From Methanolobus sp. ZRKC5 (GTDB lineage Archaea; Halobacteriota; Methanosarcinia; Methanosarcinales; Methanosarcinaceae): a stretch of DNA of 64,000 bases. Below the pieces are notes generated by a model that did no database searches, had not been told where the DNA came from, and was given only the letters and a program-made list of their open reading frames with translations. The position numbers and the translations under genes were made by a program. Of the stretch, positions 24,271 through 63,757 are shown in pieces. The DNA is taken from contig NZ_CP151792.1 of NCBI RefSeq assembly GCF_038446525.1, positions 1,674,001-1,738,000 of the forward strand, written 5' to 3'. Position 1 is the first letter of the stretch. Every line of letters starts with the position of its first letter.

Positions 24271-24753
24271 ATGAAATCAGATATCAATGTTCAACGAGCA
24301 AAAGATAATGAAAATCTCACTGACATGGAAAAAAAGCATATTCCAGTCATTGAAGCTCCTGCAGAGGTAATAGCAGGTGAGCCTTTTGAGGTGAAAGTTA
24401 CGATTGGTAGTATTCCTCATGTGATGGAAGAAGACCATTACATACAATGGATAGAGTTACATATAAATGGTGATTTTGTCGAGAAAAAAGAATTGAAAGT
24501 AACAGACGGAAAAGCTGAGGCAACTTTTACGGTGGTTGGAACTGAAGAGATGATCTCCGCACGTGAGATAATGAACTGCAGAATTCATGGATTTGGTGTA
24601 TGTGGTACATGTGGTGTACGATCAGCAATTGTAATCCTAAGGGCGATCGAAGGTTGTAATGTACATGGTCTATGGGAAGGTTCAACGGGAATTGAAATAA
24701 CTTCTGCGACTTCAAAACCTGGAAAAAAGTGTGGATGGGGTCCAGAATTGTAA
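24271..24753 (+). CDS. Methanoferrodoxin-type superoxide reductase
   Basis: A 160-residue protein with the mononuclear-iron superoxide reductase site: histidines in KKHIPVIE and IPHVMEEDHYIQWIEL, and the Cys-His pair in CNVHGLWEGS. Between these, MNCRIHGFGVCGTCG and a final KKCGWG add four cysteines absent from plain neelaredoxins. This fits methanoferrodoxin, the SOR class described from Methanosarcina mazei with an extra [4Fe-4S] cluster. It reduces superoxide to peroxide and would protect oxygen-sensitive corrinoids. I chose the ATG at 24271, preceded by AGGTGA; a GTG nine bases earlier is less likely. It stands alone before mtbA1. Confidence 0.85.
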   Translation: MKSDINVQRAKDNENLTDMEKKHIPVIEAPAEVIAGEPFEVKVTIGSIPHVMEEDHYIQWIELHINGDFVEKKELKVTDGKAEATFTVVGTEEMISAREIMNCRIHGFGVCGTCGVRSAIVILRAIEGCNVHGLWEGSTGIEITSATSKPGKKCGWGPEL

Positions 24754-24790
24754 TTCTGGATTTCAATTTTATTTTTAGGAGTTTAATATA

Positions 24791-25810
24791 ATGGCAGAAT
24801 ATACACCAAAAAAAAGATTAGCACGTGCATTAACCGGTCAGCCTGTTGACAGGATGCCTGCTGTTTCCGTAACACAAACAGGAACAGTAGAACAGATGGA
24901 AGCCTGTGGCGCTTTCTGGCCCGAAGCAAACAGTGATGCGCAAAAGATGGCAACCCTTGCCGAAGCAGGGCATACAGTCGTAGGATTTGAAGCAGTACGT
25001 GTTCCTTTTGACATCACCGCAGAAGCTGAGTTCTTCGGCTGTGAGATCAAGGATGGTACTCAGGAACAGCAACCATCAGTTGTCGGTCATGTTGTAAGTA
25101 ATATAGAGGACATTGCAAAACTCGAAGGCTATAACCTTGACCACGGAAGAATTGGTGTTGTATGTGATGCGATCAAGATTCTCGCAGACAAATATGGTGA
25201 TGAACTTCCTATAATGGGCAGTATGATCGGTCCTTTCTCTCTTGCTCAGCATATCAATGGTGACGATTGGTTCATGGCTATCTTCACAAACGAGGAATTC
25301 GGTCTTGCACTTATGGAGTTCACAACCGAGTTCAATGTTGCATATGCAAAGAAGATGGTAGAGAACGGTGCAGACACCATGGTCATCATTGACCCTACGG
25401 CAAGTGCCCAGCTTATTGGTGCTGAGTTCTACGAGAAGTTTGTAGTGCCTTATCACAAGAAGATCTGTGATGCTATGCGCGAGCTTAACGTTGCTACGGT
25501 ACTGCACATCTGTGGTGACACGACCCAGGGTCTTGTACTTATGGAATCATCCGGTGTGGATGGTATCAGTATTGACCAGAATGTAGATGTTGCAACTGCT
25601 GTGGGTCTGGTTGGAAAGTCAGTCATAGTTGGAAACCTTGACCCGGTGAACATGCTCTGGAACAAGACACTTGAGGAGATCAAGAAAGAGTCAGAGAAGG
25701 TTCTGGACGCAGAAGTAGGATTGCTGGCTCCAGGATGCGGTATAGTAAGTAAGACTCCAACCGAGAATCTCCAGGCAATGGTGGAGATGGCAAAGAGTCA
25801 TAATTATTGA
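24791..25810 (+). CDS. mtbA1: Methylcobamide:coenzyme M methyltransferase MtbA (copy 1)
   Basis: A 339-residue zinc enzyme of the uroporphyrinogen decarboxylase-like family. It transfers the methyl group from MtmC, MtbC or MttC to coenzyme M. The zinc ligands are in [12 protein letters not shown] (HxC near residues 239-241) and [11 protein letters not shown] (Cys316). The ribosome site TAGGAGTTTAAT is shared with the other two mtbA copies. This copy is the most different of the three (for example AFWPEANSD and NTKTLEE-like changes near the end). A terminator follows. Confidence 0.95.
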
Positions 25811-36235: not shown

Positions 36236-37255
36236 ATGGTAGAATATACACCAAAAGAAAGATTAGCACGTGCATTGACCGGTCAGCCAGTTGACAGGAT
36301 GCCCGCAGTATCCGTAACCCAGACCGGAACAGTAGATCAGATGGAAGCCTGTGGCGCTGCCTGGCCTGAAGCAAACTATGACGCTCAAAAGATGGCAACA
36401 CTTGCCGAAGCAGGTCACACCGTAGTAGGCTTTGAAGCTGTACGCGTGCCTTTCGATATCACCGCAGAAGCTGAGTTCTTTGGCTGTGAGATCAAAGATG
36501 GTACAGAGGTACAGCAGCCATCCGTGATTGGTCACGTTGTAAGTAGTATGGAAGACATCGAAAAGCTCAAAGGCTACACACTTGACAACGGCAGGATTAA
36601 TGTCGTATGTGATGCTATCAAGATCCTTGCAGACAAATATGGAGACGAACTCCCTATTATGGGTAGTATGATCGGTCCTTTCTCCCTTGCTCAGCACATC
36701 AATGGTGACGAGTGGTTCATGGCTATTATGACAAAGGAAGAATTTGGTCTTGCGCTCATGGAATTCACAACTGAGTTCAGTGTTGCGTATGCAAAGAAGA
36801 TGGTAGAGAGCGGTGCAGACACAATGGTCATCATTGACCCAACTGCAAGTCCACAGCTTATCGGTAACGAGTTCTACGAGAAGTTCGTGGTACCTTTCCA
36901 CAAGAAGGTCTGTGATGCTATGCGTGAGCTTAATGTTCCAACAGTACTGCACGTATGTGGTGACACAACCCAGGGTCTTGGAGTCATGGAAACATGTGGT
37001 GTGGATGGTATAAGTGTTGACCAGAACGTAGATGCTGCAACAGCTGTCGGAAATGTGAAAAATGCTGTCATCGTTGGTAACCTCGATCCTGTTAACATGC
37101 TCTGGAACAGGACACCTGAGGAGATCAAGGAAGAGTCACAGAAGGTTCTGGATGCAGGAATTGGTCTGCTGGCTCCTGGATGCGGTATTGTGAGCAAGAC
37201 TCCAACCGAGAACCTCCAGGCAATGGTGGAGATGGCAAAGAGCCACAAATATTGA
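36236..37255 (+). CDS. mtbA2: Methylcobamide:coenzyme M methyltransferase MtbA (copy 2)
   Basis: A 339-residue protein with zinc ligands in [12 protein letters not shown] and [11 protein letters not shown]. It is almost the same as mtbA3 at DNA level: differences are limited to about ten in the first ~120 bases and two near the end. The start is ATG 36236 after TTAGGAGTTTAAT. It lies 109 bases after mtmB2 and probably has its own promoter or reads through from that operon. A terminator follows. Confidence 0.95.
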
Positions 37256-39315: not shown

Positions 39316-41241
39316 TCATTTTTCCGCTTGTGGAATTCCTGTTCCAAGGAACATGAGTTTTGTTTCAACAGGAGCTCCGCCTTTTTCCATCATTGTGATG
39401 TCTTCTCTCTTGATTTCGATACTTACATCTTCTGCTTTGATACCCGAGTTTTCCATATAATCAAGTATTAGCTTATTCCCACGCTCCGTAGCGTATTCGA
39501 TAGCTTCTGAGTAAAGTGAGAACTCCTTTCTTTCCATTGGAGAGAACACCAGAATAGTCCTCTTCGTTTTCTGGTAGAATGACTTGATAAGTATCTCTAC
39601 GGTCTTGACACCTTTTCCAACAAGTGCTCCCACTGCATTTCCCACATCTGCATGTTCGGGAACTATAATAGTTGCATCTATCAGCTTGTTAAGTTCTTCC
39701 ACATAGGCATGCACAGGTCCTCCAAGTAAGACCACCGGTACATTCACTTTGAATTGCGAGAAGAACTCGCCGCGGATTATTTTTTCTATCTCTGATTTTT
39801 CAACACCTTTGAACATGAAACTCATAAGGTCCAGTGCCATGTTGATGGCCACTTCTTTTTTGATGTGGATGCAAAGCTCATTTTCGTCCATGGTTGTAAG
39901 CCTTGCAAGTATCTTTGCACCTGTAAGTGAGGCTTCCCGGCTCCATATTGTGTACTCTCCAAGCACATGCAGTACATCTGTAGGGGTAAATCCGATGGCC
40001 TGGACAAGCCTTTTTTGTATCAATGCATCTATCTGGTCTGCAGATATCGGAGTTTTCATATTCCAGAAGATATCATTAATTGAAACAGGTTCCGTCCCTA
40101 TTGTTCCAAGAAGCTTTTTTTCAAATTCACTAAGGTTTGGTGCTTCTTTTCCTGTTCTTACAAAGAATTTTGTGGGCTGGATATTCTCTGCAAGAGGAAC
40201 CCTTGAAGGTGTTCTGCCTGATTTGAGTTGTTCCATGAACCCGGGATATTTTACAGCAGCAAGGCAGAGTGGTATCACCCTGCGAGGTCCGATATTGATA
40301 TTGCGGTTCTTTATCCATATATGGCTATCTCCACCCATTGCGGAAGTTTCCATACGTATGGCTTTGACTTTTGTGTGCCATCCACCTACCACGGCTCCTG
40401 TATCAACAAGTTCGGGTAGACCGTTGTGATTTAGCGAAACATCGGTGCTTGTCCCGCCTACATCAATAACAGCACATGTATCGTTTTTAGAGAGGAAGGA
40501 TGCTCCCATCAGGCTGGCAGCAGGTCCAGAAAATATTGATTCTATTGGTCTTTCCATGGCTTCATGGATTCCGATGACCGAGCCGTCACATTTGAGCATC
40601 ATTAATTTTGCATCGATTCCTCTTTTTTCAATATCGGTAATAATAGCATTTATGAATTGGTCCGCTATGGGGAGAAGTTGAGCATTAAGGTATGCAGTAA
40701 CACCCCTTTCATAGGCTCCAAGATCCTGCGACAGTTCATGACCGCAGACTACCGGAAGGCCTGTAAGTTCGGTTATTAGTTTCTTTACTTTTAGTTCATG
40801 GTCAGGGTTTCGAATACTGAAATATGAGGAAATAGCAAATGCGGACACTCTGTCTTTCATTTTCAGGGCATATTCTTTGACAGCTTCAATATCAAGCACT
40901 TCGTCTTCGGTTCCTACTACATTGTGTCCTCCATTCACTACAACATAGTCAGTGATAGGCATATTTGCAGGCAGGGTGTGTTTTCCTATAAGGATAAGAG
41001 CTACAGGATACCCTGTTTTCTCAAGTATTGTATTGGTGGCAAGAGTTGTGGATACTGATACAAGTTTAATGTCATTCAGGTATTTGCTGTTCAGTCCGTC
41101 CATTGCATTCTCTATACCGGTCAGCAGATCAGGATAGGTTGTGAGTGCCTTGTTCGAGTCGATAACTGTTCTGTCCTCATTCCTGATTATCACTGCATCA
41201 GTGTAAGTTCCACCGGCATCGATTCCCAGACTATATTGCAT
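39316..41241 (-). CDS. HyuA-like hydantoinase/oxoprolinase family protein (copy A)
   Basis: A 641-residue protein with the ASKHA ATPase fold. It begins SLGIDAGGTYTDAVIIRNED (phosphate 1), followed by VSVSTTLATNTILEKTGYPV, CDGSVIGIHEAMERPIES, VIDVGGTSTDVSLNHNG (phosphate 2) and RMETSAMGGDSHIWIKN. A winged-helix-like segment lies around residues 375-430 and an adenosine-like motif VVLLGGPVHAYVEELN near 515. No HyuB-type partner is encoded nearby. In Methanosarcinaceae such genes cluster with methylamine genes, but the reaction is unknown: hydrolysis of N-methyl hydantoins or ATP-driven corrinoid service are both possible. Copy B ends directly before its start. Confidence 0.85.
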   Translation of the reverse strand: MQYSLGIDAGGTYTDAVIIRNEDRTVIDSNKALTTYPDLLTGIENAMDGLNSKYLNDIKLVSVSTTLATNTILEKTGYPVALILIGKHTLPANMPITDYVVVNGGHNVVGTEDEVLDIEAVKEYALKMKDRVSAFAISSYFSIRNPDHELKVKKLITELTGLPVVCGHELSQDLGAYERGVTAYLNAQLLPIADQFINAIITDIEKRGIDAKLMMLKCDGSVIGIHEAMERPIESIFSGPAASLMGASFLSKNDTCAVIDVGGTSTDVSLNHNGLPELVDTGAVVGGWHTKVKAIRMETSAMGGDSHIWIKNRNINIGPRRVIPLCLAAVKYPGFMEQLKSGRTPSRVPLAENIQPTKFFVRTGKEAPNLSEFEKKLLGTIGTEPVSINDIFWNMKTPISADQIDALIQKRLVQAIGFTPTDVLHVLGEYTIWSREASLTGAKILARLTTMDENELCIHIKKEVAINMALDLMSFMFKGVEKSEIEKIIRGEFFSQFKVNVPVVLLGGPVHAYVEELNKLIDATIIVPEHADVGNAVGALVGKGVKTVEILIKSFYQKTKRTILVFSPMERKEFSLYSEAIEYATERGNKLILDYMENSGIKAEDVSIEIKREDITMMEKGGAPVETKLMFLGTGIPQAEK

Positions 41242-43197
41242 TTAATCTACCTCCATTGTTGCCCTATTCTTCCTTGCCTGACCTGTACCCGAAAAAGCGA
41301 GTCTTGTTTCCACAGGAAGTCCTCCTTCGTGTGTAATAATATCATTTCGATGCATATCAATGTTTACTCCATCGTTGTCCATTCCTGAATTGATCATATA
41401 CTTCATGATGAGTTTGGTTCCCATCTCTTCTCCAAATTCCAGAGCTTCGTGGTATGATGAGACCTCTTCCCTTCCTCCAGGGAAAAAAACCACAAAAGAT
41501 GATGTTTTCAGATTATATTTTGACTCTGTGTAATTTGCTTTTATCAGCACTTCAAGTTTTTTGGAGCCTTTTCCTGCAACCGCACCGACAGCATTTCCAA
41601 CACTACAATTATCTGGTACAATTATCTGTGCATCTATGAATCTGGCAAGCTCTTTTGAATAGGCACCGACAGGCCCCCCAAGCAGAACAACAGGCAGTTC
41701 TACCTTAAATCTTGCAAAGAATTTACCCATAAGGACTTTTTCGATCTCTTCTTTACTGATGCCCTCAAGTAGAAAAGAAATTAGATTCAATGCCATGTTC
41801 CTGGCTACATCCTCTTTTATTTGCAGACAAAGCTCGTCCTCATCAATTCCGGCAAGTGTAGCCAGTATACTTGCTCCAAGTAAAGATGCATCTTTGTTCC
41901 ACTGCGTATATTCTTGAAGAACATGCAGGGCGTCGGTGGGAGTAAATCCAATGGTTTTGATAAGCCTCTTTTGTATCAACAGGTCAAGTGTTCCTGGATT
42001 TGGAAGCCTGTTCTCATTCCAGTATATTTCACTGACAGTCAGTGGCCTATCTCCAATCCTTGATAGTAGCTCTTTTTCTGCAGAACTGATATCTGAAGCT
42101 TCAAGTCCTGACCTGATGAAGAACTTAGTAGGCTGCAGGTTCTCACCGATCTGGTTACGTAAGATTACCTGGTTTTGTTTGAGCTTTTCAACGATCTCAG
42201 GATATTCCACAGCAGCTAAGCAGAGTGGTATAACCCTTCTTGGGCCAATACTGATGACATGGTTCCTCACCCACACATGACTGTCTCCACCCATTGCAGA
42301 TGTTTCCATACGTATTGCTTTGACTTTTGTCTGCCAGCCCCCGACAACAGCACCTGCTTCGCTAAGTTGTGGTATTCCACGATATATCAGTGAAACGTCT
42401 GTACTTGTTCCTCCTACATCTATGACGGCGCAATCTTCATTTCCTGAAAGATATGCTGCTCCCACAAGACTTGCTGCAGGCCCCGAAAACACTGATTCGA
42501 TCGGTTTTTTCAAAGCTTCATTGATAGCTACCACAGATCCATCACATTTGAGCATCATTATTTTTGCGTCTATATTTCTTCTTTTAATCTCAGAAGTGAC
42601 TGATTCCATGAACTGACTGGCTATGGGGATCAATTGCGCATTCAAATAGGCTGTGATACCTCTTTCGTATGCTCCAAGGTCCTGTGACAATTCATGTCCG
42701 CAAACTACCGGAAGGCCTGTAAGTTCGGTTATTAGTTTCTTGATCTTCAATTCATGTTCAGGATTGCGTACGCTGAAATATGATGAGATTGCAAAAGCAG
42801 AGACTTTGTTTTTGATGCTGAGAACAAAGTTTCGTGCAGAATCCAGGTCAAGGGGGCATACTTCATTTCCTGCACTGTTATGCCCTCCTTTTACAAGAAC
42901 AAAATTTTCTATCTTTGCTCTGTTTGGAATGTCTGCATCATTAACAAGGATTAGTCCTACTGGATAACCAGTCTTCTCCAGAACGCTGTTAGTTGCCAGA
43001 GTAGTTGATACTGATACATAGTGAACGTTTTCAAGATAGTGTGGGTCCAGTTGATCCAAAGTGTTCCTGATACCTATTAACAGGTCGGGATAAGTTGTAA
43101 GAGATTTGTTGGATTTTACTATGCTCCCATCGGAATCCCTGATTATCGCAACATCAGTGTAGGTGCCTCCGGCATCTATTCCAAGACTGTAATGCAT
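41242..43197 (-). CDS. HyuA-like hydantoinase/oxoprolinase family protein (copy B)
   Basis: A 651-residue paralogue of copy A with the same motif order: SLGIDAGGTYTDVAIIRDSD, VSVSTTLATNSVLEKTGYPV, VIDVGGTSTDVSLIYRG, RMETSAMGGDSHVWVRN and VVLLGGPVGAYSKELARF. Its stop codon directly adjoins the ATG of copy A, with no spacer, so the two are cotranscribed and translationally coupled. The C-terminus has an extra basic tail (GQARKNRATMEVD). Function as for copy A: family known, substrate unknown. Confidence 0.85.
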   Translation of the reverse strand: MHYSLGIDAGGTYTDVAIIRDSDGSIVKSNKSLTTYPDLLIGIRNTLDQLDPHYLENVHYVSVSTTLATNSVLEKTGYPVGLILVNDADIPNRAKIENFVLVKGGHNSAGNEVCPLDLDSARNFVLSIKNKVSAFAISSYFSVRNPEHELKIKKLITELTGLPVVCGHELSQDLGAYERGITAYLNAQLIPIASQFMESVTSEIKRRNIDAKIMMLKCDGSVVAINEALKKPIESVFSGPAASLVGAAYLSGNEDCAVIDVGGTSTDVSLIYRGIPQLSEAGAVVGGWQTKVKAIRMETSAMGGDSHVWVRNHVISIGPRRVIPLCLAAVEYPEIVEKLKQNQVILRNQIGENLQPTKFFIRSGLEASDISSAEKELLSRIGDRPLTVSEIYWNENRLPNPGTLDLLIQKRLIKTIGFTPTDALHVLQEYTQWNKDASLLGASILATLAGIDEDELCLQIKEDVARNMALNLISFLLEGISKEEIEKVLMGKFFARFKVELPVVLLGGPVGAYSKELARFIDAQIIVPDNCSVGNAVGAVAGKGSKKLEVLIKANYTESKYNLKTSSFVVFFPGGREEVSSYHEALEFGEEMGTKLIMKYMINSGMDNDGVNIDMHRNDIITHEGGLPVETRLAFSGTGQARKNRATMEVD

Positions 43198-43960: not shown

Positions 43961-46531
43961 GTGATTGATATTTCAGTTGTTAAAGATTCGGGTAAAAATA
44001 AAATGCATGGGGCAACGTCGTCTGCTCTTGATCCTGTTGACAAAAAACTGGAAGCTGTTTACAATAGTAGCCCGGTTATATCTTTTCTGTGGAATGCAGA
44101 AGGTAAATGGCCTGTTGAATCTATATCCGCAAACATTACCCGGTTAGGGTATACACCTGAAGACTTTACCACAGGGAAGTTGGTTTACGGTGATATTGTC
44201 CATCCTGATGATATTGACAGAATCCTTCTAGAGGTGAAGAAACATTCTGAGAAAAAGAATACCTCTTATTTTTCTCTTAATTATCGCATACTGACAAAAT
44301 CAGGTGAAGTGCGCTGGGTGACCGAGAGGTCATTTATAAACAGGGATATAAAAGGCAATATCACTCATTTCCAGGGTATACTTATTGATAATACCGAGCT
44401 TGAGAAAACTGAGAGAGAACTGCTGGAAACCGGACAAAAATATCAGATAATAATTGAAAGGTCTCCTGTGGGTCTCCTCTATTTTGACGAAAATGGCCTT
44501 ATTACCCACTGTAATAAGAGCTGTTCGGATGTTATTGGTGCACCTGCGGAGAAGATAATTGGTTTCAATGTTCTTTCATCGTTAAATGATGAAAAATTAA
44601 GGAGTGCTATTGATGTTGTTTTCCTGGGAAATCCTGGTTATTATGAAGGTGAGTATGTTTCCAGCATAAGTGGGAAAACAATGATGATCAAGGCAAGTTT
44701 TTCTCCTGTGATGGATGATGACGGATCTTTGATGGGGGGCATCGGAATAATGGAAGACGTTGCATCCAGAAAGAAAGCCCAGGAAACTATCCATCTGAAT
44801 GAGATGCGTCTTGAAGCTCTCCTGAAATTATATCAGATGCAGGATTCCCCGTTGCACGAGATTGCTGAGTATGCCATCCAGAATGCTGCAGAGCTTACCA
44901 ATAGCAAAATAGGTTATCTTGAATTTTTGAATGAAGAAAAGAATATGCTTGAAACATATCAGTGGCCTAGCGATCTTAATGATTATTTTGGTGAAGAACC
45001 TTTTATGCATCCTGTAAAATCTACAGGTTTTTGGGGTGAAGCTATACGTGAACGCAAAGCTGTTATTGTCAATAAGGATTATGATTCTGAACGTGTTGAT
45101 GATATATATCCTGGAACAAATGATGAAATATTGCGACACATAACGATTCCTGTATTTGAAAATGACCAGGTAGTTGCAGTTGCCGGGGTGGCGAACAAAG
45201 TATTGGATTATAATGAATCCGATGCCCTCCAGTTAACCCTCCTAATGGAAGGTATGTGGAAACTTGTGCAGTACAAGAAAACAAAAGATGTTCTTTCTGA
45301 AGCACTCAGGATGCGTCGGATGCTTGAATCCATCATGAGTTCAAGTCCTGCAATAGTATTTCTTTGGAAGCCTGAGCAAGACTGGCCTGTGGAATTTGTT
45401 TCTGAGAACATTGAGCAGTTTGGCTACACTGTTTCAGATTTTATTTCAGGCAAGATCATTTATGGTGATATTATTCACCCCTCTGACCTGCAAAGAGTAC
45501 GAGATGAAGTAGAAAGAGCTTCAAGGGAAGGTTTTTCGGATTTCAGCCAGGAATACAGGATACTGACAAAATCAGATGAAATAAGATGGATCGATGAAAG
45601 AACCCTGCTTCATTATGATGAGAACGGTATGGTAGATTACCTGCAGGGTATTATTGTCGATATAACTGAACGCAAGCATGCTAATAATTTCATGCGTATT
45701 GAGTGTGACCTTGACAATGTTCTGGGGGAGACTGCAGGTCTTGAGGAAACATTTGAGAAGCTGCTTGATTTTACACTTGAGGCCAAAGCAATAGATTCCG
45801 GTATCATCTACATGATCGACCAGATAACTGGTGATTTTAATGCAGTTGCTCATCAGAATCTTTCAGAAAAATTCGTGGCTTCATTATCTCATTTTGGTTC
45901 GAACACACTAATAGCACGTCTTTTCACCACAGGTTATCCGGTATACAAATATTTCGCTGAGATCAACACGATGGTGCATGGCGAGGACCATGATTCTGAA
46001 GGGTTGCAGGCAATGGCGTTCATACCTGTCAAATTTAATGATAAAATGGTTGCAGCTATTGTTCTTGGTTCGCATACAGAACTTGAGATACCGGCAAATT
46101 CAAGGAATCTTATAGAAACAGTTGCAAATCAGGTAGGCATCATAATATCCAGAATAAAAATGGATTCAGGTTCCCAGAAAAGTAAAAACAATCTAAATTC
46201 CCTGCTTGACGCCCTTGATGAGATTGTATTTATTATGGATATCGAGGGGAGTATCCTTCATGTAAATGAAGCTTTGATCAGAAACCTGAACTATTCTGAA
46301 AAAGACCTTGAAATGAAAGATTTCCTAATGCTTTATCCTGAAGACTGGGAGGATGATGTTCTCTCAAATCTTGATGAGATAATGTCAGGTAAATCATCCA
46401 CTTGTGAGATTCCTCTGGTGAGTAAGGAAGGAATCCTTGTTCCAGTCAAGTCAAAGTTTAAAATTAGTGATTGGGGAGGACAGGATGTCCTCATAGCCAT
46501 TTCTTCCATTACAAAGGAGCTAGGTTCTTAA
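43961..46531 (+). CDS. Multi-PAS/GAF sensor protein without kinase or output domain
   Basis: An 856-residue soluble protein. I see PAS domains near residues 30-145, 150-265, 445-565 and 745-856, and GAF domains near 285-435 (AIQNAAELTNSKIGYLEFLN) and 575-735. The PAS domains at 30-145 and 445-565 (IVFLWKPEQDWPVEFVSENI) closely resemble the second PAS of the kinase at 14985-17843. No histidine phosphoacceptor, ATPase, GGDEF or DNA-binding domain follows; the frame ends in the last PAS. The GTG start at 43961 is uncertain, and ATG 44003 is an alternative. Its stop overlaps the stop of the convergent HyuA-like gene by four bases. Confidence 0.85.
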   Translation: MIDISVVKDSGKNKMHGATSSALDPVDKKLEAVYNSSPVISFLWNAEGKWPVESISANITRLGYTPEDFTTGKLVYGDIVHPDDIDRILLEVKKHSEKKNTSYFSLNYRILTKSGEVRWVTERSFINRDIKGNITHFQGILIDNTELEKTERELLETGQKYQIIIERSPVGLLYFDENGLITHCNKSCSDVIGAPAEKIIGFNVLSSLNDEKLRSAIDVVFLGNPGYYEGEYVSSISGKTMMIKASFSPVMDDDGSLMGGIGIMEDVASRKKAQETIHLNEMRLEALLKLYQMQDSPLHEIAEYAIQNAAELTNSKIGYLEFLNEEKNMLETYQWPSDLNDYFGEEPFMHPVKSTGFWGEAIRERKAVIVNKDYDSERVDDIYPGTNDEILRHITIPVFENDQVVAVAGVANKVLDYNESDALQLTLLMEGMWKLVQYKKTKDVLSEALRMRRMLESIMSSSPAIVFLWKPEQDWPVEFVSENIEQFGYTVSDFISGKIIYGDIIHPSDLQRVRDEVERASREGFSDFSQEYRILTKSDEIRWIDERTLLHYDENGMVDYLQGIIVDITERKHANNFMRIECDLDNVLGETAGLEETFEKLLDFTLEAKAIDSGIIYMIDQITGDFNAVAHQNLSEKFVASLSHFGSNTLIARLFTTGYPVYKYFAEINTMVHGEDHDSEGLQAMAFIPVKFNDKMVAAIVLGSHTELEIPANSRNLIETVANQVGIIISRIKMDSGSQKSKNNLNSLLDALDEIVFIMDIEGSILHVNEALIRNLNYSEKDLEMKDFLMLYPEDWEDDVLSNLDEIMSGKSSTCEIPLVSKEGILVPVKSKFKISDWGGQDVLIAISSITKELGS

Positions 46532-48462
46532 CAACAATCCTGTTCGGTGTTCCTGTTACCAACTCCAAGCACTACAAGCTTTGTTTCCATTGGTGTTTTC
46601 CATCCCAATGGAATGATTTCCTCTTTTTTAACATCTATTTTTATGTGATTAGAATCAAGCCCGGCATCTTTCATGTAGTTGAGAACTGTGTTCTCCCCCA
46701 TGGTAACTGCAAAGTCAAGAGCCTCCTGGTATTCATAGAAATTATCTTTTCCATGTTCAGAGAACACAAGGAATTCCCAGTCAGGAGCTGCCATTGAAGC
46801 AGGTCTAATAAGCACTTCAAATCTTCTGATACCTTTTGCAGCTAGTGCGCCGGCAGCGTTTCCTACACTGGAATATTCAGGAAGGATGATTTCTGCATCC
46901 AGTATTTCTTGTATGTCTTCTACAAAAGCAGCTACAGGCCCTCCAATTAATACAACAGGAACATCTACTTTGAACTTTGCGGGTGATTGGATATCAAATA
47001 TCTTCCTTATTTCTTTTTTCTCCACTCCTTCAAGGAAGAACGATATGAGGTCACATGCCATGTTTTTTGCAAACTCTTTTTTGATATGTCTGGCAAATTC
47101 ATATCTGTCCATATCTACAATTGAAGAAAGCAGATCAGCACCTGTATTTGCGGCTTCGACATTTCTTTCCGTGTACTCGCCAAGTACATGTAGTGCATCA
47201 GTGAGTGTGAAACCTATAGGCTGCAATAGTCTTTTTTGTATGAGGCTATCCAATATGGCGCTGGAAGGGTATTTTTTTATCCGGTTGAATATCTCCGTGG
47301 TCGATGTAGGATTCTTTTTTATGGCGTTAAGTATTTCTTTTTCCTCTTCGCTGGCCTCCAGTTCCTCATAATCTGTTCTCAGGTAGAATTTTGTCGGCTG
47401 ATAATTGATGCCCATGCGTATCTTTGAAGGGATGGGATTTGTTTTGAGTTGTTCAAGGAAATCCGGGTAGAGCACAGCAGCTCTGCACAGAGGGATGACC
47501 CTTCTGGGACCGATGTTGATATCTTTACCTTTTACCCATACGTGGCTATCTCCTCCCATTGCTGATGTTTCCATACGTATGGCTTTGACCCTGGTTTTCC
47601 ATCCGCCAACAACAGCACCAGAATCGCTCATATCAGGAACTCCATTGTGTATCACTGAAATGTCTGTGCTGGTGCCTCCTACATCTATGACGGCACATGT
47701 TTCTCTTTTTGCAAGGAATGAAGCCCCTACAAGACTTCCGGCAGGTCCTGAAAAAATGGATTCAATTGGTTTTTTGAGGGCACTTTGGATACCAATGACA
47801 GATCCGTCACACTTAAGCATGAATATCTTTGCATCAATTCCCCTTGACTTTATTTCCGCTTCAACGGTTGTCATGAATCTCTCAGTTACAGGTATCAATT
47901 GTGCATTCAGGAATGCTGTTACAGCTCTTTCAAAAGCTCCGAGATCTTGGGAGAGCTCATAGCTGCAGACTACAGGACGGCCTGTAAGTTCTATTATCAT
48001 TTCTTTTGCTTTCAGTTCATGATCATGGTTCCTCACACTAAAGTATGAAGATATTGCAAAAGCTGAAACCTTGTCCTTGACCTTTAATGTAAAGTCTTTG
48101 ATAGATTCGATGTCCAGATCATCGGTTTCAATACCATTATGGTCATGACCTCCGCTAACCTGTAAAAAATGTTTTGTTGGAAGTTCTTGTTTGATATCAT
48201 AATTTCCAATAAGTATCATGGCAACAGGGGAGCCGGTACCTTCAAGTATACTGTTTGTGGAAAGCGTAGTTGAAACAGACACAACTTTCACATCTTGGAG
48301 GCGTATGGGGTCTAATCCGTCAATAGATTGTTTTATTCCTTCCAGTGGATTAGGATAGGTTGTCAATGCTTTGCTGGATTGAAGTATGGTTTCATCATCA
48401 TCTCTTAGGAGGACTGCATCTGTGTACGTTCCTCCCGCATCTATGCCAAGGCTATAATTCAT
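46528..48462 (-). CDS. HyuA-like hydantoinase/oxoprolinase family protein (copy C)
   Basis: A 644-residue paralogue of copies A and B: SLGIDAGGTYTDAVLLRDDD, VSVSTTLSTNSILEGTGSPV, VIDVGGTSTDISVIHNG, RMETSAMGGDSHVWVKG and VVLIGGPVAAFVEDIQE. It is divergent from mttB across 607 bases, unlike A and B which are paired upstream of tRNA-Pyl. As with those, no HyuB subunit is present. Location next to the trimethylamine operon suggests a role in methylamine metabolism; the reaction is not known. Confidence 0.85.
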   Translation of the reverse strand: MNYSLGIDAGGTYTDAVLLRDDDETILQSSKALTTYPNPLEGIKQSIDGLDPIRLQDVKVVSVSTTLSTNSILEGTGSPVAMILIGNYDIKQELPTKHFLQVSGGHDHNGIETDDLDIESIKDFTLKVKDKVSAFAISSYFSVRNHDHELKAKEMIIELTGRPVVCSYELSQDLGAFERAVTAFLNAQLIPVTERFMTTVEAEIKSRGIDAKIFMLKCDGSVIGIQSALKKPIESIFSGPAGSLVGASFLAKRETCAVIDVGGTSTDISVIHNGVPDMSDSGAVVGGWKTRVKAIRMETSAMGGDSHVWVKGKDINIGPRRVIPLCRAAVLYPDFLEQLKTNPIPSKIRMGINYQPTKFYLRTDYEELEASEEEKEILNAIKKNPTSTTEIFNRIKKYPSSAILDSLIQKRLLQPIGFTLTDALHVLGEYTERNVEAANTGADLLSSIVDMDRYEFARHIKKEFAKNMACDLISFFLEGVEKKEIRKIFDIQSPAKFKVDVPVVLIGGPVAAFVEDIQEILDAEIILPEYSSVGNAAGALAAKGIRRFEVLIRPASMAAPDWEFLVFSEHGKDNFYEYQEALDFAVTMGENTVLNYMKDAGLDSNHIKIDVKKEEIIPLGWKTPMETKLVVLGVGNRNTEQDCC

Positions 48463-55545: not shown

Positions 55546-55640
55546 CACCTATAATTAAGGTGGGATGCAGGCAACACTCAGAAAGTCAAAACGTTGCTTT
55601 CTACCTTAATCAAAACTACTATCACATAAGGAGGCAAAAT

Positions 55641-56297
55641 ATGTCAAACCAGGAAATGTTAGACAAACTCAGAGATATAATCGTTACCCAGAACATCAAC
55701 GGCAGTGCAGCAGCTACCCAGGAAGCTCTTGACAGCGGACTCACTGCAGTTGAGATCATCAATGGCGGTCTTTCAGTAGGTATGAAGATCATAGGAGATA
55801 AATTTGAAGCAGCAGAAGTATACCTTCCACAGATCATGATGTCTGCAAAGGCAATGAATGCTGCAATGGAAATTTTAGTTCCTATACTTGCAGAAGAAAA
55901 GGGAGCAGATGATGAAGGTGTAGGTCTTGCTATCACTTACGTACAGGAAGGCGACATTCATGATATCGGTCACCGCCTTGTAACAACAATGCTTGGTGCA
56001 AACGGCTTTAGGATCCTTGATATGGGAGTAGATGTTCCAAACGATGATATCGTTACAGAAGTTGCAAAGAACAAGGGCAAGAAGGTCATCCTCGTAGGCT
56101 CAGCACTTATGACAACATCCATGCTTGGTCAGAAGGACACAGTAGAGATGCTTACGGAAGAAGGTCTCAGAGATGATGTCAAGATCATGTTCGGTGGAGC
56201 ACCAGTTTCAGATGGCTGGATCGCAGAGATCGGAGCAGATGCAACAGCAGAAAATGCAGCAGATGCAGCTCGTGTAGCTCTTGAGATAATGAAATAA
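55641..56297 (+). CDS. mtmC3: Monomethylamine corrinoid protein MtmC (copy 3)
   Basis: A 218-residue corrinoid protein, nearly the same as mtmC2, with GDIHDIGHRLVTTML, VGSALMTTSML and FGGAPVSDGW. I chose the ATG at 55641 because AAGGAGGC precedes it and the product aligns with mtmC2; the frame is open further upstream without homology. mtmB3 begins 13 bases downstream. Confidence 0.95.
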   Translation: MSNQEMLDKLRDIIVTQNINGSAAATQEALDSGLTAVEIINGGLSVGMKIIGDKFEAAEVYLPQIMMSAKAMNAAMEILVPILAEEKGADDEGVGLAITYVQEGDIHDIGHRLVTTMLGANGFRILDMGVDVPNDDIVTEVAKNKGKKVILVGSALMTTSMLGQKDTVEMLTEEGLRDDVKIMFGGAPVSDGWIAEIGADATAENAADAARVALEIMK

Positions 56298-56310: not shown

Positions 56311-57687
56311 ATGACATTTTCAAGATCAATGGATTGTTTTGAATTCTACGAGCGTGCAAAGAAAGGTACCAAGATGTCCCAGGACGACTGGGACCTTATG
56401 ACCATTCCTATGAAGTCAATGGAGCTCAAGCAAAAATATAACCTTGACTTCAAGAACGAATTTATCCCAACCGACAAGGACATGATGGAAAACCTGTTCA
56501 AAGCAGGTTTTGAAATGCTTCTTGACTGTGGTATATTCTGTACCGACACAAGTCGTGTAGTAAAATATACTGAAGATGAGATATGGGATGCTCTTAACAA
56601 CGTCCAGAAAGGATTCACACTTGGAACTGGCAGAGATGCAGTAAACGTTAAGAAAAGAAATGTTGGCGACAAGAGAAAGCCAATAGTTCAGGGTGGTCCA
56701 ACAGGTTCCCCTATTTCCGAGAACATGTTCATGCCTGTTCACATGAGCTACGCTCTTGAGAAGGAAGTCGACACAATCGTTAACGGTGTCATGATGACCG
56801 TTCGCGGGAAACCACCAATTCCAAAGAGCCCTTATGAGATTCTTGCAGCCAAGACCGAGACAAGGCTCATCAAGAATGCAGCTGCAATGGCCGGAAGGCC
56901 AGGCATGGGCATATAGGGACCAGAGACTTCCCTGTCCGCTCAGGGAAATATCGCTTCAGACTGTGCCGGTGGCCAGGTCTGCAGTGACAGTCACGAAGTA
57001 TCACAGCTCAATGAGCTTAAGATCGACCTTGACGCTATCAGTGTGATGGCACATTATCAGGGTAACAGTGACATCATTATGGATGAACAGATGCCTATCT
57101 TTGGTGGATATGCCGGTGGCATAGAAGAAACCACAATTGTCGACATCGCAACCCACATCAATGCATTTGTGATGAGCAATGCAAGCTGGCATCTTGATGG
57201 TCCAGTCCACATCCGCTGGGGATCCACAAACACTCGTGAAACCCTTCAGATCGCTGGATGGGCATGTGCAACAATCTCAGAATTCACAGACATAATCTCC
57301 GGTAACCAGTACTATCCATGTGCAGGTCCATGTACCGAGATGTGTCTGCTTGAAGCATCCGCACAATCTATGACCGACACAGCATCCGGCCGTGAGATCC
57401 TCTCCGGTGTTGCAGCTGCAAAGGGTGTTGTCCAGGACAAGACCACAGGTATGGAAGCAAGGATGATGGGAGAAGTCGCAAGAGCAACTTCAGGTATGGA
57501 CATTGCAGAGGTCAACGGTATCATTGACAACCTTGTCAAACTCTACGAGAAAGACTATGCAACAGCACCAGAAGGAAAGACATTCCAGGAATGTTACGAC
57601 ATCGCTACCGTCACACCAACCGACGAGTATGTGAAGGTCTACGATGGTGCACGCAGGAAGCTTGAAGAGCTCGGACTTGTATTCTAA
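56311..57687 (+). CDS. mtmB3: Monomethylamine methyltransferase MtmB with pyrrolysine (copy 3)
   Basis: A 458-residue protein with pyrrolysine from TAG at 56914-56916 (residue 202). It is the most different of the three copies at protein level (for example KGFTLGTGRDAVNVKKRNVG and TVRGKPPIPKSP), although the stretch just after the amber codon is the same as in mtmB2. It forms an operon with mtmC3 and ends with the same double hairpin as mtmB2. Confidence 0.96.
56914..56947 (+). promoter_or_regulatory. Amber codon and PYLIS-type hairpin in mtmB3
   Basis: TAG at 56914-56916, then TTCCCTG (56928-56934) and CAGGGAA (56941-56947). The hairpin is unchanged although the surrounding gene has diverged. 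Confidence 0.7.
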
Positions 57688-58176: not shown

Positions 58177-58555
58177 ATGCAACGCCCTCGTAGAGACAAA
58201 AATGAGCTGTAACTATTCAGCCTACCACAATTAGCCTATTGATACTGATTTAATCAAAACGGAGATGTTTGCTCACTAACAACCTAAGAATCAAAAAAGC
58301 AATCAATGGCAACAATCAAAATTAATGATCCTAATAAAATGTAGGTCTCAACTTTTTGTCAAGATTGCTATTGATAGTGTTTTTATCAGGCTGAATAGTT
58401 ACAATGAGCTTAAAAAAGCAGAGATACGTGTTTATGACGATTTTAAAGTGAATATCTTTGAGAGGCTAAATCAGGAAAGTAAGAAAAAGTTATCTTCTGT
58501 ACTTGAATTTAAAGTAAATCAAATAACAGAAAAGAAATTTCATAATCGTTTTTGA
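58177..58555 (+). pseudogene. Small gene split by a MITE
   Basis: Removing the 194-base MITE (58209-58402) and one 8-base target copy (58403-58410) joins 58177-58208 to 58411-58555. This gives an unbroken 58-residue frame, MQRPRRDKNELKKAEIRVYD and onward to FHNRF and TGA, with GGTGA upstream of the ATG. The product would be highly basic, like a small nucleic-acid-binding protein; I do not recognise the family. With the MITE in place it cannot be made in full. Confidence 0.65.
58209..58402. mobile_element. 194-base MITE with IS66-type ends, copy 1
   Basis: Ends are GTAACTATTCAGCCT (58209-58223) and its inverse AGGCTGAATAGTTAC (58388-58402), the same as the ends of the IS66 element at 62136-63757. 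It is flanked by perfect 8-base repeats AATGAGCT (58201-58208 and 58403-58410). It has no gene. An inner inverted repeat (AATCAATAGCAACAATC-like against GATTGTTATTGATAGC-like) would let it fold. This copy is the most diverged of three. Confidence 0.92.
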
Positions 58556-58581: not shown

Positions 58582-59955
58582 TCAAACTGGCTCCCCGGGG
58601 AAGTCTCCCAATATATCGTAAGATATCTTCCTGTAAAGTGCCAGATACTCCTCGGTAGGTTCCATATCGTATTCAGAACGGATGTTGTAACATTTCTCGA
58701 AGGGTTTCCCTTGTGGTGGGGATTTGAGGCGATCAGCATATTTTGCATATATCTTTGCCACGAGCTTATTAGCTTCAGAGAGGGTCAGGTGGGTTGCCAT
58801 TTGGGCCATCTCACCCATGAATCGAGATTCGAGGCCGGATGAGTGGTCAGGGACGCTTCCAAGTCTGCCAGTGGGTCCAAGCAGTATGTTCCTGCCACAT
58901 ACAGTGTCGCCAATAGTCTGTGCAGCAGTCTCATAGAACATCATGTCCGTACAGATACCAGCAGCGTTCCAGTAGTATCTTGCAGTATAATAGTTCATAT
59001 TTCTGGAAATTGCAAGGGATGACATATTTGATGCCCACAGTATCTCCTTGGCAGATGATGAGCCGGTTTCAGCATGTACTGCACCGGATGCGTGTATGCT
59101 GGAGTGAGCCAGAACTTTTGATTGTAGAGTTTCAGCCACATCTATGATGGCAAGTCCCTCAGGGGAACCAATGCATGGTCCTCCGAAAACAGGTACCTGG
59201 CCTGATATATAGTGATTACCATGTTCCTGATGATAAATGCATTTTGACAGGGTCTCATAGTCCACTTTCAGATCATCCATGTAAACTTCCTGGGGGTCAG
59301 CACTTGAATAAAGCTCATCTGATGATACAAGCAAAGATGATGTTGTAAGTGTTGAGGTGCTCGGACCCATAAGTGCAAGCCCTTCTCTCCCGGCTATTTT
59401 GGAAGCCAGTCTCTCATTTCTGGATGCCTTCAGAACTGCAAGCATCTCCAACGGGCTTTTTGGTTGTATATATTCTCCCCCAAATTGTTTCATGGCTCCG
59501 CTGTAGATTCCTTGCACAACGTTCTCCTGTGCAGAGCTTAAGTTAACGTAAAGGAAATTTTCCTCTGATATGCTTCCTCCCATCGGACCGCCTATGATCA
59601 CAGGTGGGAATGAAGCCATAGGGTAACGATTTGCTACTATTACTTTTTCTTTGAGTCTTCCAATCTCAAGAGGGTTTGTGGTATTCAAAGCCTTCAAAAT
59701 ATCTTCTTCGTCAATATTAATAACTCTCTGGGTGCTTCTACAGAATATCCCTACAGAATGGAGAAGTTCAATACCGGCTTCAAATACAGAATCTGCAGCT
59801 TCAAGATCATCAGGCACAAAAATTCTAGGATCATACTCTATCCCATATTTAAGAGCTAATTCTTCTGATTTTTTGAAAACTTTTATGTCATGCTCCCTTT
59901 CGGTTCTTTTTTCTCCTCCAATTGCATATTTGAGGTATTTGTAGATATTTTGCAT
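58582..59955 (-). CDS. MtmB-family methyltransferase homologue lacking pyrrolysine
   Basis: A 457-residue protein that aligns over its whole length with MtmB. Shared stretches include IIGGPMGGSISEENF (MtmB: VQGGPTGSPISEDVF), QPKSPLEMLAVLKASRNERL, QVPVFGGPCIGSPEG, AAQTIGDTVCGRNIL and GLESRFMGEMAQMA. At the pyrrolysine site MtmB has AGRPGMGI-O-GPETS; here it reads AGREGLALMGPSTS, with methionine in place of pyrrolysine and no amber codon. By analogy with non-pyrrolysine MttB homologues such as MtgB, it may demethylate another substrate, or have another role. No corrinoid protein gene adjoins it. It is transcribed away from mtbA3 from a 260-base leader region containing a MITE upstream. Confidence 0.88.
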   Translation of the reverse strand: MQNIYKYLKYAIGGEKRTEREHDIKVFKKSEELALKYGIEYDPRIFVPDDLEAADSVFEAGIELLHSVGIFCRSTQRVINIDEEDILKALNTTNPLEIGRLKEKVIVANRYPMASFPPVIIGGPMGGSISEENFLYVNLSSAQENVVQGIYSGAMKQFGGEYIQPKSPLEMLAVLKASRNERLASKIAGREGLALMGPSTSTLTTSSLLVSSDELYSSADPQEVYMDDLKVDYETLSKCIYHQEHGNHYISGQVPVFGGPCIGSPEGLAIIDVAETLQSKVLAHSSIHASGAVHAETGSSSAKEILWASNMSSLAISRNMNYYTARYYWNAAGICTDMMFYETAAQTIGDTVCGRNILLGPTGRLGSVPDHSSGLESRFMGEMAQMATHLTLSEANKLVAKIYAKYADRLKSPPQGKPFEKCYNIRSEYDMEPTEEYLALYRKISYDILGDFPGEPV

Positions 59956-60214
59956 GATAATTCTCCTATTTAGACAAAATAGCCCTATCAGAAGTGAAAG
60001 GGGGTATACATTACAGTTTTTTAATTAAGACAGATTTGTTTCTTGTATTTATATATTTCTGTTAAACCCATGATGTATGCTTGATTTTGTATTGTATATT
60101 AGCATACTATTATTATTGTAGACATTTATTATAGACATTTGGATTTAGTATCCAGTCCAATTATTTTGCAGTAATTCTTAATACAGATTTCTTTTCAAAA
60201 GGAATATAATGAAT

Positions 60215-60408
60215 GTAACTATTCAGCCTGGCACGATTTGCCTATTGGTACTGATTTCATCGAAATAGAGATGTCTACTCACTAATAATCTAACAATCAA
60301 AAAAGCAATCAATAGCAACAATCAAAATAAATGATCCTAATGAAATTTACGTTTCAACTTTTTGTCAAGATTGTTATTGATAGCGTTTTTATCAGGCTGA
60401 ATAGTTAC
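60215..60408. mobile_element. 194-base MITE with IS66-type ends, copy 2
   Basis: Same 15-base terminal inverted repeats (60215-60229 and 60394-60408), flanked by perfect 8-base repeats TAATGAAT (60207-60214 and 60409-60416). It differs from copy 3 at only a few bases. It lies 260 bases upstream of the MtmB-like gene and about 450 upstream of mtbA3. The rest of the spacer 59956-60855 shows only AT-rich DNA and a TATA-like AAAAATATATATCT (about 60797-60810) ahead of mtbA3. Confidence 0.93.
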
Positions 60409-60855: not shown

Positions 60856-61875
60856 ATGGCAGAATATACACCAAAAGAAAGATTAGCACGTGCATTAACC
60901 GGTCAGTCAGTTGACAGGATGCCTGCAGTATCCGTAACTCAGACCGGAACTGTAGATCAGATGGAAGCCTGTGGCGCTGCCTGGCCTGAAGCAAACTATG
61001 ACGCTCAAAAGATGGCAACACTTGCCGAAGCAGGTCACACCGTAGTAGGCTTTGAAGCTGTACGCGTGCCTTTCGATATCACCGCAGAAGCTGAGTTCTT
61101 TGGCTGTGAGATCAAAGATGGTACAGAGGTACAGCAGCCATCCGTGATTGGTCACGTTGTAAGTAGTATGGAAGACATCGAAAAGCTCAAAGGCTACACA
61201 CTTGACAACGGCAGGATTAATGTCGTATGTGATGCTATCAAGATCCTTGCAGACAAATATGGAGACGAACTCCCTATTATGGGTAGTATGATCGGTCCTT
61301 TCTCCCTTGCTCAGCACATCAATGGTGACGAGTGGTTCATGGCTATTATGACAAAGGAAGAATTTGGTCTTGCGCTCATGGAATTCACAACTGAGTTCAG
61401 TGTTGCGTATGCAAAGAAGATGGTAGAGAGCGGTGCAGACACAATGGTCATCATTGACCCAACTGCAAGTCCACAGCTTATCGGTAACGAGTTCTACGAG
61501 AAGTTCGTGGTACCTTTCCACAAGAAGGTCTGTGATGCTATGCGTGAGCTTAATGTTCCAACAGTACTGCACGTATGTGGTGACACAACCCAGGGTCTTG
61601 GAGTCATGGAAACATGTGGTGTGGATGGTATAAGTGTTGACCAGAACGTAGATGCTGCAACAGCTGTCGGAAATGTGAAAAATGCTGTCATCGTTGGTAA
61701 CCTCGATCCTGTTAACATGCTCTGGAACAGGACACCTGAGGAGATCAAGGAAGAGTCACAGAAGGTTCTGGATGCAGGAATTGGTCTGCTGGCACCTGGA
61801 TGCGGTATTGTGAGCAAGACTCCAACCGAGAACCTCCAGGCAATGGTGGAGATGGCAAAGACCCACAAATATTGA
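60856..61875 (+). CDS. mtbA3: Methylcobamide:coenzyme M methyltransferase MtbA (copy 3)
   Basis: A 339-residue protein, nearly the same as mtbA2 ([12 protein letters not shown] and [11 protein letters not shown] zinc ligands). DNA identity with mtbA2 starts just before the ribosome site and ends at GATATC after the stop codon, so only the gene was copied. It has its own promoter and no methyltransferase gene beside it on the same strand; MITEs lie on both sides. Confidence 0.95.
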
Positions 61876-61934: not shown

Positions 61935-62128
61935 GTAACTATTCAGCCTGGCACGATTTGCCTATTGGTACTGATTTCATCGAAATAGAGATGTCTGCTC
62001 ACTAACAATCTAACAATCAAAAAAGCAATCAATAGCAACAATCAAAATAAATGATTCTAATGAAATTTACGTTTCAACTTTTTGTCAAGATTGTTATTGA
62101 TAGCGTTTTTATCAGGCTGAATAGTTAC
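61935..62128. mobile_element. 194-base MITE with IS66-type ends, copy 3
   Basis: Terminal repeats at 61935-61949 and 62114-62128. The left target copy is ATTTTTTA (61927-61934). Its right partner was displaced by the IS66 insertion and is now found at 63759-63766, after the IS. Without the IS the MITE has perfect 8-base repeats. Confidence 0.93.
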
Positions 62129-62135
62129 ATTTTTT

Positions 62136-63757
62136 GTAACTATTCAGCCTAACTGTTTTAATGATGCAAAAAACAATATACTATGGCTTCATTCTATGTG
62201 TTAAAAAATATTCAGTAAAATATCATAAAAAACGTCTATCAATCTGAGGGGATTTGTATAGACCGCGAAGAAATACTTGCAGTTTATGAAGCTGGTCCAG
62301 AAGCAGTAGTAGAACTTGTAACTCGATTACTTGGGATAATTGAACATCAATCTCTCCAAATTGCACAACTTGAAGAGCGTGTCAGGCATTTGGAAGAAAT
62401 GCTTGAAAAGAATAGTCGCAACAGTAGCAAACCACCTTCTACTGATTCTTATGCACGGAATAAACCAACCGTTAAAAGTCAAAGAAAAAAGACCAATAAG
62501 CATGTAGGTGGTCAAAACGGTCATCCTGGTACTACATTAAGAATAAATGATGATCCGGATGAAGTTATTGTTCATCCTGTTAATCAATGCGTCAATTGTG
62601 GGAGATCGTTAGCTTCTGTTCCCTCTAACTATGAAAGAAGACAGGTCTTTGACATTCCTCCTATAACTATCAATTGCATTGAACATCGTTGCGAGATTAA
62701 AACATGTCCCAAATGTTCTCATGTAAACAAAGCTCTTTTTCCAGATGGTGTAACTCAGCCGACTCAATACGGTCATCGAGTTAAGTCATTTGCAGTTTAT
62801 TTGCACACTTACCAATTACTTCCTTATCAGCGTGTTACCAAGTTGTTCTCTGATATTTTGGGATGCAAGATAAGTCCTGCTACTTTGGTGAACACGGAAC
62901 GTAGTTGTTTTGAGAAGCTTGGAGCTTTTGAAAATACAGTGAAACATCTCCTGAAAGAATCTCCTGTCATCAATCTGGATGAAACAGGAATGAGAATAAA
63001 TGCAGTTCGTAATTGGCTTCATGTGGCAGGTACAGACAAACTGACCTATTATTTTGCACATCGCAAAAGGGGCTCAGAAGCAATGGATGCTATGGGCATA
63101 TTACCAGGTTACACTGGTGTTGCAACACATGATTTTTGGAAACCGTACAACAAATATGAATGTCAACATTCATTATGTAATGCACATTTATTACGAGAGT
63201 TAACTGGAGCTTCCGAAAACAGTGATCAACAGTGGCCAAAGATAATGAGTGATCTCTTGATATGCATTAAACATCATGTTGATAATGATCTTTTAGATAC
63301 TGAGCTAATTCAAAGGTTCAGTGAGGATTATGATCACATAACTTGTTTAGGAGTGAATGAAAATCCTCCTGATCCGGAATCAAATGTGCGGTCTAAAAAA
63401 CGAGGACGTAAGAAGCAGACCACGGTAAAGAATTTGCTGGATAGGTTTATTGGCCATAAAGAGGATATCTTGCGATTTATGTACGACCAAAACGTTCCGT
63501 TTGATAACAATCAGGCTGAAAGAGATATCAGAATGACGAAAGTACAGCAGAAGATATCAGGTACTTTCCGCAGTAAACAGGGTGCAAAAAATTTCTGCCG
63601 TATAAGAGGATACGTGTCTACTGTTAATAAGAATTCTGAATCTGTTATCGATGCAATTAGTGCAATATTTTATGGCAATTCATTTGTTCCAAAGTTGCAG
63701 AATTAATCGTGGATGAAGAAATCAGCTTGGTGGAAGTGAGCTAGGCTGAATAGTTAC
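62136..63757 (+). mobile_element. IS66-family insertion sequence
   Basis: A 1622-base element with ends GTAACTATTCAGCCT (62136-62150) and AGGCTGAATAGTTAC (63743-63757). Perfect 8-base target repeats CATTTTTT flank it (62128-62135 and 63758-63765); 8 bases is the usual target length of IS66. The left target copy includes the last base of MITE copy 3, so the IS jumped into the very edge of that MITE. It carries one transposase gene and no accessory TnpA/TnpB genes. Confidence 0.92.
62258..63706 (+). CDS. IS66-family transposase
   Basis: A DDE transposase of up to 482 residues. N-terminal helical/leucine-zipper-like part (LEERVRHLEEMLEKNSRNSS) with the KPPSTDSY motif, then a zinc-finger-like region (CVNCGRSL, KTCPKCSHVN), and the catalytic core with VINLDETGMRINAVRNWLHV, SLCNAHLLRELTGAS and FDNNQAERDIRMTKVQQKIS. 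The coding frame is open from 62219. The expected N-terminus DREEILAVYEAGPEAVVELV lies after ATA at 62258, six bases after GAGGGG; no ATG, GTG or TTG stands there. The first ATG is at 62390, inside the conserved part. Start codon therefore uncertain. Confidence 0.9.
   Translation: MDREEILAVYEAGPEAVVELVTRLLGIIEHQSLQIAQLEERVRHLEEMLEKNSRNSSKPPSTDSYARNKPTVKSQRKKTNKHVGGQNGHPGTTLRINDDPDEVIVHPVNQCVNCGRSLASVPSNYERRQVFDIPPITINCIEHRCEIKTCPKCSHVNKALFPDGVTQPTQYGHRVKSFAVYLHTYQLLPYQRVTKLFSDILGCKISPATLVNTERSCFEKLGAFENTVKHLLKESPVINLDETGMRINAVRNWLHVAGTDKLTYYFAHRKRGSEAMDAMGILPGYTGVATHDFWKPYNKYECQHSLCNAHLLRELTGASENSDQQWPKIMSDLLICIKHHVDNDLLDTELIQRFSEDYDHITCLGVNENPPDPESNVRSKKRGRKKQTTVKNLLDRFIGHKEDILRFMYDQNVPFDNNQAERDIRMTKVQQKISGTFRSKQGAKNFCRIRGYVSTVNKNSESVIDAISAIFYGNSFVPKLQN

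Follow-up and report, generated by a model that had tools for sequence, protein, structure and literature searches.

A conserved pyrrolysine-free MtmB homologue of Methanolobus as a candidate corrinoid methyltransferase

An MtmB-family gene with methionine at the pyrrolysine position

What does an MtmB homologue without pyrrolysine do among the methylamine genes of an archaeon whose other MtmBs contain this residue? The question is raised by a gene in a 64,000-nucleotide stretch (the window) of the genome of Methanolobus sp. ZRKC5 (3.05 Mb, one contig). An earlier sequence-only reading gave the correct location of the gene but left out its strand, which is minus: the forward frame is riddled with stops, while translation of the reverse frame yields a single 457-residue ORF (Table 1). 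In a profile search against Pfam MtmB (PF05369, curated cut-off 25 bits) it scored 490 bits over 441 of the 450 positions, bearing out the claim of a full-length MtmB paralogue. The loop sequences and the missing amber codon had also been read exactly, as translation and alignment with the three resident MtmBs revealed: the latter carry AGRPGMGI-O-GPETS with an amber-encoded residue 202, whereas the window protein has AGREGLALMGPSTS (A188-S201), with Met196 (codon 59368-59370, ATG) in the column of pyrrolysine 202. MtmB-family genes number exactly four in the host genome, three with one TAG each and the window gene with none. That the host has pyrrolysine and that the gene stands among methylamine genes was likewise correctly seen, as the window encodes PylD as well as PylC-, PylB- and PylS-like proteins (and also a RamA-type protein), three MtmBs bear a TAG, and the gene has mttBC, mtbCB and mtmCB on one side and mtbA on the other.

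Table 1. Coordinates of features in the window (positions are those of the whole stretch)
Feature	Position	Strand	Remarks
mtbA	24731-25810	+	within the cluster
mtbA	36236-37255	+	within the cluster
Hydantoinase/oxoprolinase-like ASKHA protein	39316-41241	-	about 640-650 aa
Hydantoinase/oxoprolinase-like ASKHA protein	41242-43197	-	about 640-650 aa
Hydantoinase/oxoprolinase-like ASKHA protein	46528-48462	-	about 640-650 aa
Corrinoid protein gene, mtmC by position	55560-56297	+	Pfam B12-binding_2 and B12-binding
Pyrrolysine mtmB	56311-57687	+	convergent neighbour; one in-frame TAG
MITE-like repeat, first copy	58209-58402	+	194 bp; termini GTAACTATTCAGCCT / GTAACTATTCAGCC; flanks window gene
Non-pyrrolysine MtmB-family gene (clade A)	58582-59955	-	457 aa, ATG to stop, no amber
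Loop A188-S201	59353-59394	-	from the alignment
AGGAGA, ribosome-binding-site-like	59962-59967	-	6 nt 5' of the ATG; by eye
TATA-like AAATATATAAATA	60046-60058	-	about 90 bases upstream of window gene; by eye
MITE-like repeat, second copy	60215-60408	+	between window gene and mtbA; 89% to first copy
mtbA, methylcobamide:CoM methyltransferase	60856-61875	+	divergent neighbour; NCBIfam NF041608, 660.6 bits (cut-off 600)
MITE-like repeat, third copy	61935-62128
IS66-type transposase	62390-63706		neighbour of MITE-like copies

Phylogeny, distribution and selection of clade A

Relatives were gathered by searching 112 genomes belonging to the family, 393 belonging to the phylum and a set of named contigs, with genera assigned from the named contigs and from sequence-identical matches to them in the genome set. 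An unrooted tree of 53 proteins (IQ-TREE, LG+C20+F+G4) separated four groups, each lying on one side of a fully or near-fully supported branch: the pyrrolysine MtmBs and clades A, B and C, with bootstrap values of 100 for both A and B. Clade A includes the window gene and is set off with 100/98 support, and a 74-protein tree agrees. On the sequences compared, the window gene thus belongs to an old, separate and well-supported clade present in many genomes, an outcome that the sequence-only reading had proposed to look for. Its talk of a loss of the residue, by contrast, does not hold for this genome. A deep split parts clade A from the three pyrrolysine MtmBs of the host, to which it is only about 31% identical, so the window gene cannot be read as an mtmB with its amber codon turned into a methionine codon, and a recent conversion of this kind in a resident mtmB is ruled out.

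Of the 27 Methanolobus genomes, 24 have a clade A copy at 79-94% identity, and none of the 22 genomes with a completeness of 99% or more is without one; the remaining three are fragmented, and one of these (G049) has a 55% relative. Outside Methanolobus, clade A occurs in other salt-loving Methanosarcinaceae. Nine of 11 Methanococcoides genomes carry it (about 62-65% identity), and further copies come from Methanohalophilus, Methanosalsum, a Methanohalobium bin and two uncultured Methanosarcinales/Methanomicrobia bins; the survey turned up none in Methanosarcina. Methanolobus bombayensis DSM 7082 has three copies (L115:7300-9359, L119:5922-9368 and L097). Deep-branching members occur in the uncultured archaeal bins JdFR-19 (L121) and B74_G9 (L118), both of which also encode PylS, and JdFR-19 has a TAG-containing MtmB besides; methylamine use in these two lineages looks unexplored. 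Clade C (L078-L084) is pyrrolysine-free like clade A and often adjoins mtb or mtt genes, but forms a separate clade with about 30-35% identity to the window protein and a LEGRPGICCFTPPF-like loop. It is uncharacterised, is hosted by Methanosarcina, Methanococcoides and others, and repeatedly lies near mtbBC and mttBC.

All of the approximately 50 full-length clade A copies are intact and, like the window gene, free of in-frame TAG codons; one short copy (L106/L032) stops at a contig edge. The median dN/dS within Methanolobus is 0.031 for clade A versus 0.075 for the pyrrolysine mtmB, values that are rough because dS exceeds 1. The comparison of coding sequences nevertheless points to clear purifying selection on clade A in Methanolobus. 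Neither the frameshifts nor the relaxed selection that the sequence-only reading had named as evidence against its proposal were seen in the relatives, and the intact copies together with the low dN/dS (about 0.03) rule out a pseudogene.

Fold, pocket and gene neighbourhood

An AlphaFold model of the window protein has a mean pLDDT of 94.3, and Foldseek matched it to the MtmB crystal structures 1tv2, 1nth and 1l2q with a TM score of 0.94, an rmsd of 1.4-1.5 Å and 32% identity in the structural alignment. The structural model that had been suggested as a check is therefore an excellent match, and the modelled protein has an MtmB-type TIM barrel, sharing full-length family (PF05369) and fold with MtmB. 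MtgB and other pyrrolysine-free MttB proteins (COG5598) represent a like idea, being quaternary-amine methyltransferases that lack pyrrolysine, but they constitute another family with only weak fold likeness to the window protein (TM about 0.5, 12-13% identity).

Differences from MtmB are concentrated in the pocket. Glu259, Gln333 and Tyr335, which on the basis of the MtmB crystal papers we take to be the catalytic residues of MtmB, are invariant across the pyrrolysine set of the alignment, as is Asn332. Clade A instead has Gly (30 of 36) or Ser (4 of 36) at position 259, Arg at 332 (34 of 36), Tyr at 333 (34 of 36) and Trp at 335 (33 of 36), represented in the window protein by Gly252, Arg326, Tyr327 and Trp329. 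The pocket residues are placed by the model on barrel strands 194-197, 249-253 and 323-329. As judged from the alignment, the polar set around pyrrolysine has been replaced in clade A by a mostly aromatic one. The residue aligned with position 202 itself varies among the 36 clade A sequences (28 Met, 3 Leu, 3 Phe, 1 Val and 1 Ile), which makes it unlikely that the methionine is catalytic.

The arrangement in the window, with a divergent mtbA, the clade A gene and a convergent mtmB-mtmC pair, is the usual order at most Methanolobus loci with enough flank, many of which have mtbB-mtbC and mttC-mttB beyond mtmB-mtmC; exceptions include L096 and L098, with the convergent mtmB several kb further off. 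The window gene differs from mtmB in having no amber codon, in its separate clade and in standing outside an operon with mtmC. Its nearest corrinoid gene lies within the convergent mtmCB operon (Table 1), and the product of this gene may serve as its corrinoid partner. No dedicated corrinoid gene was found in an operon with clade A at the Methanolobus and Methanococcoides loci, apart from one M. bombayensis copy (L115), preceded at a distance of 38 bp by a corrinoid gene of its own. In Methanococcoides an orc1/cdc6-type gene and then a hydantoinase-like gene come after the clade A gene, and mtmB is not near clade A in Methanococcoides, Methanosalsum and Methanohalophilus. One sub-branch of clade A (Methanohalophilus L087/L150/L151, M. 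bombayensis L119, M17C L117 and T3Sed10 L091) has the gene of a betaine/choline-type (BCCT) transporter as divergent neighbour at all loci, with scores of 604-607 bits, just below the 650 cut-off of the NCBIfam glycine betaine equivalog. The host genome has neither a BCCT gene nor a non-pyrrolysine MttB, so the transporter clue is not directly applicable to the window organism.

Several other features of the region deserve mention. Among the three mtbA genes of the cluster, the last two encode 99% identical proteins, which suggests a recent duplication or gene conversion. The hydantoinase-like ASKHA proteins lie inside the methylamine cluster, where a role in corrinoid activation is only a guess; we considered them as dedicated partners of clade A, near which a homologue also lies in Methanococcoides, but no functional link could be made. 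The MITE-like repeat that flanks the window gene plays no part in its function. Three copies lie within 56-64 kb, and 33 of the 46 matches genome-wide are identical to the query, which suggests a very recent burst; the IS66-type transposase might drive this element. A composite transposon formed by the gene and the two surrounding copies was ruled out by the synteny across Methanolobus and by the 46 genome-wide matches, and searches of plasmid, phage and PHROG collections gave no match. A MITE copy also lies about 480 bp from a second, shorter MttB homologue (L164, G000:C1:1353961-1354971; profile positions 160-495, one in-frame TAG), possibly a truncated mttB.

The candidate methyl donor and rival explanations

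The sequence-only reading had called non-pyrrolysine homologues of MtmB much less known than those of MttB; a premise that no functional one is known is out of date. MtqB of Methanococcoides methylutens Q3c, reported in March 2026, uses tetramethylammonium and choline as donors for the methylation of cob(I)alamin and is weakly active on monomethylamine (11 versus 37-42 nmol/min/mg on the main substrates); it groups with the pyrrolysine MtmBs, and its pocket Met and Cys are fully conserved (PMC13044021). Pyrrolysine-free MtmBs are thus a kind already known, one of them with a function, and clade A is a distinct and widespread variant. By gene order, pocket and distribution, rather than by comparison with the Q3c sequence itself, clade B fits an MtqB-like group. 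An MtbC-like corrinoid gene immediately precedes its genes (L075-L077). Met205 and Cys259, taken as the pocket Met and Cys of MtqB, are found in all seven members, and the clade also has Met260. Its distribution in Methanococcoides is patchy, and a genome from genus group g13, taken as Methanosarcina, also carries it. Two of its copies are 77% identical, resembling the 78-87% quoted for MtqB (PMC13044021).

The window protein could itself be imagined as an orthologue of MtqB, as both are pyrrolysine-free MtmB homologues from methylamine-using methanogens with an aromatic residue at MtmB position 333 (Tyr in six of the seven clade B proteins, as in clade A, sometimes with Phe at 335). Moreover, choline is a substrate of M. 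vulcani SLH33 (PMC7374477), a strain with a clade A gene (L107), and the genome taken as SLH33 (G026) yielded no MtqB-like copy. However, clade B is a separate group beside the pyrrolysine MtmBs (100/99 support), is only about 28% identical to the window protein and has an adjacent corrinoid gene as well as Met205 and Cys259, neither of which is a feature of clade A; the window locus has no such gene, and the window protein has Ser199 and Gly252 at these positions. M. vulcani B1d likewise carries a 93% orthologue of the window gene (L095), but betaine is the only quaternary-amine growth substrate listed for it in a review (PMC7374477), its growth on betaine is reported to rely on a different enzyme, MtgB, and choline is not used by extracts of TMA-grown cells (PMC6855144, PMC7374477). 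We rejected orthology with MtqB on clade, pocket and gene order and regard it as highly improbable; the B1d data also indicate that choline or tetramethylammonium is probably not the substrate of clade A in Methanolobus. A pyrrolysine-independent monomethylamine methyltransferase, acting as a backup when pyrrolysine is scarce or in nitrogen scavenging, would suit the conserved position facing mtmCB and has a precedent in the weak pyrrolysine-independent monomethylamine activity of MtqB (PMC13044021). Yet the polar residues invariant in pyrrolysine MtmBs are replaced, the amine of monomethylamine leaves poorly unless an adduct is formed, and pyrrolysine MtmBs are encoded in all carrier genomes that were checked, so that we deem such a role quite unlikely.

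Loss of catalysis altogether, with clade A partnering MtmB in a regulatory or structural capacity or sensing methylamines, would be in keeping with the fact that most genomes have no corrinoid gene dedicated to it, with the loss of the polar residues at MtmB 259, 333 and 335 and with the constant proximity to methyl-transfer genes in Methanolobus. However, the residues that replace the polar ones are kept in 30-34 of 36 sequences and show no drift, the L115 copy has a corrinoid gene of its own, and the location of clade A away from mtmB in three genera shows that the two are not obligate partners. Whereas the sequence-only reading had placed a new methyl donor and a non-catalytic role side by side, we find the former reasonable and the latter conceivable but unlikely. 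A donor other than an amine, such as a methyl sulfide or a halomethane, is hinted at by a distant pyrrolysine-free MtmB-superfamily protein that showed the strongest induction of all proteins in dichloromethane-grown Formimonas (PMC9768040). The amine-specific company of clade A, namely mtbA, mtmCB, mtbCB and mttBC in Methanolobus and BCCT in one sub-branch, speaks against this and makes such a donor very unlikely.

Conservation, pocket and gene company together favour an active corrinoid methyltransferase that feeds MtbA and has an N-methyl cation as donor, and the documented quaternary-amine activity of another pyrrolysine-free MtmB (PMC13044021) supports a role in methyl transfer. On balance we think it probable, though far from assured, that the window protein is an active pyrrolysine-independent enzyme of this type for an N-methyl donor, perhaps a quaternary amine. 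The donor, an N-methyl compound with a positive charge (quaternary, or an amine that is protonated or otherwise activated), would be bound in the mouth of the barrel, the site where MtmB holds the pyrrolysine-amine adduct, by an aromatic/arginine pocket of Tyr327, Trp329 and Arg326, with room left by Met196 and Gly252. The methyl group would then pass directly to a corrinoid protein in the Co(I) state, either MtmC or some other MtxC of the host, from which MtbA would transfer it to coenzyme M. Since the amine departs readily from a quaternary ammonium as it stands, we propose that a pyrrolysine adduct would not be needed.

Other observations count against this methyltransferase or narrow its substrate. 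Known MtxB/MtxC pairs have a dedicated corrinoid gene in the operon, whereas clade A of Methanolobus and Methanococcoides does not. Several Methanohalophilus genomes carry a clade A copy despite narrow reported growth substrates, which comprise only methanol and mono-, di- and trimethylamine, with glycine betaine negative in the single strain tried (PMC4928046, PMC6491703). N,N-dimethylethanolamine is weakened as a candidate and unlikely as the substrate, since M. burtonii uses it (PMC4239356) and the Methanococcoides genome taken to be M. burtonii (G017; 2,575,032 bp) has no clade A or clade B gene. No report on activity, expression or substrate of clade A was found in the literature that was searched.

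Much methane production in saline sediments is fed by methylated amines. The near-universal presence of clade A in Methanolobus and the strong selection on it beside amine genes imply an enzymatic step that is not accounted for. More tentatively, and with somewhat less than even chances in our estimate, clade A could be the first enzyme for an unrecognised methanogenic donor, other than the simple methylamines and tetramethylammonium or choline, that is used by nearly all Methanolobus and most Methanococcoides; if so, marine methylotrophic methanogens would have a hidden core substrate. Clade A and the pyrrolysine MtmBs also present one fold in one cell with and without pyrrolysine, a natural contrast that bears on the purpose of this residue. 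M. bombayensis, in which one copy is accompanied by its own corrinoid gene and another by BCCT, appears a good organism for a substrate hunt.
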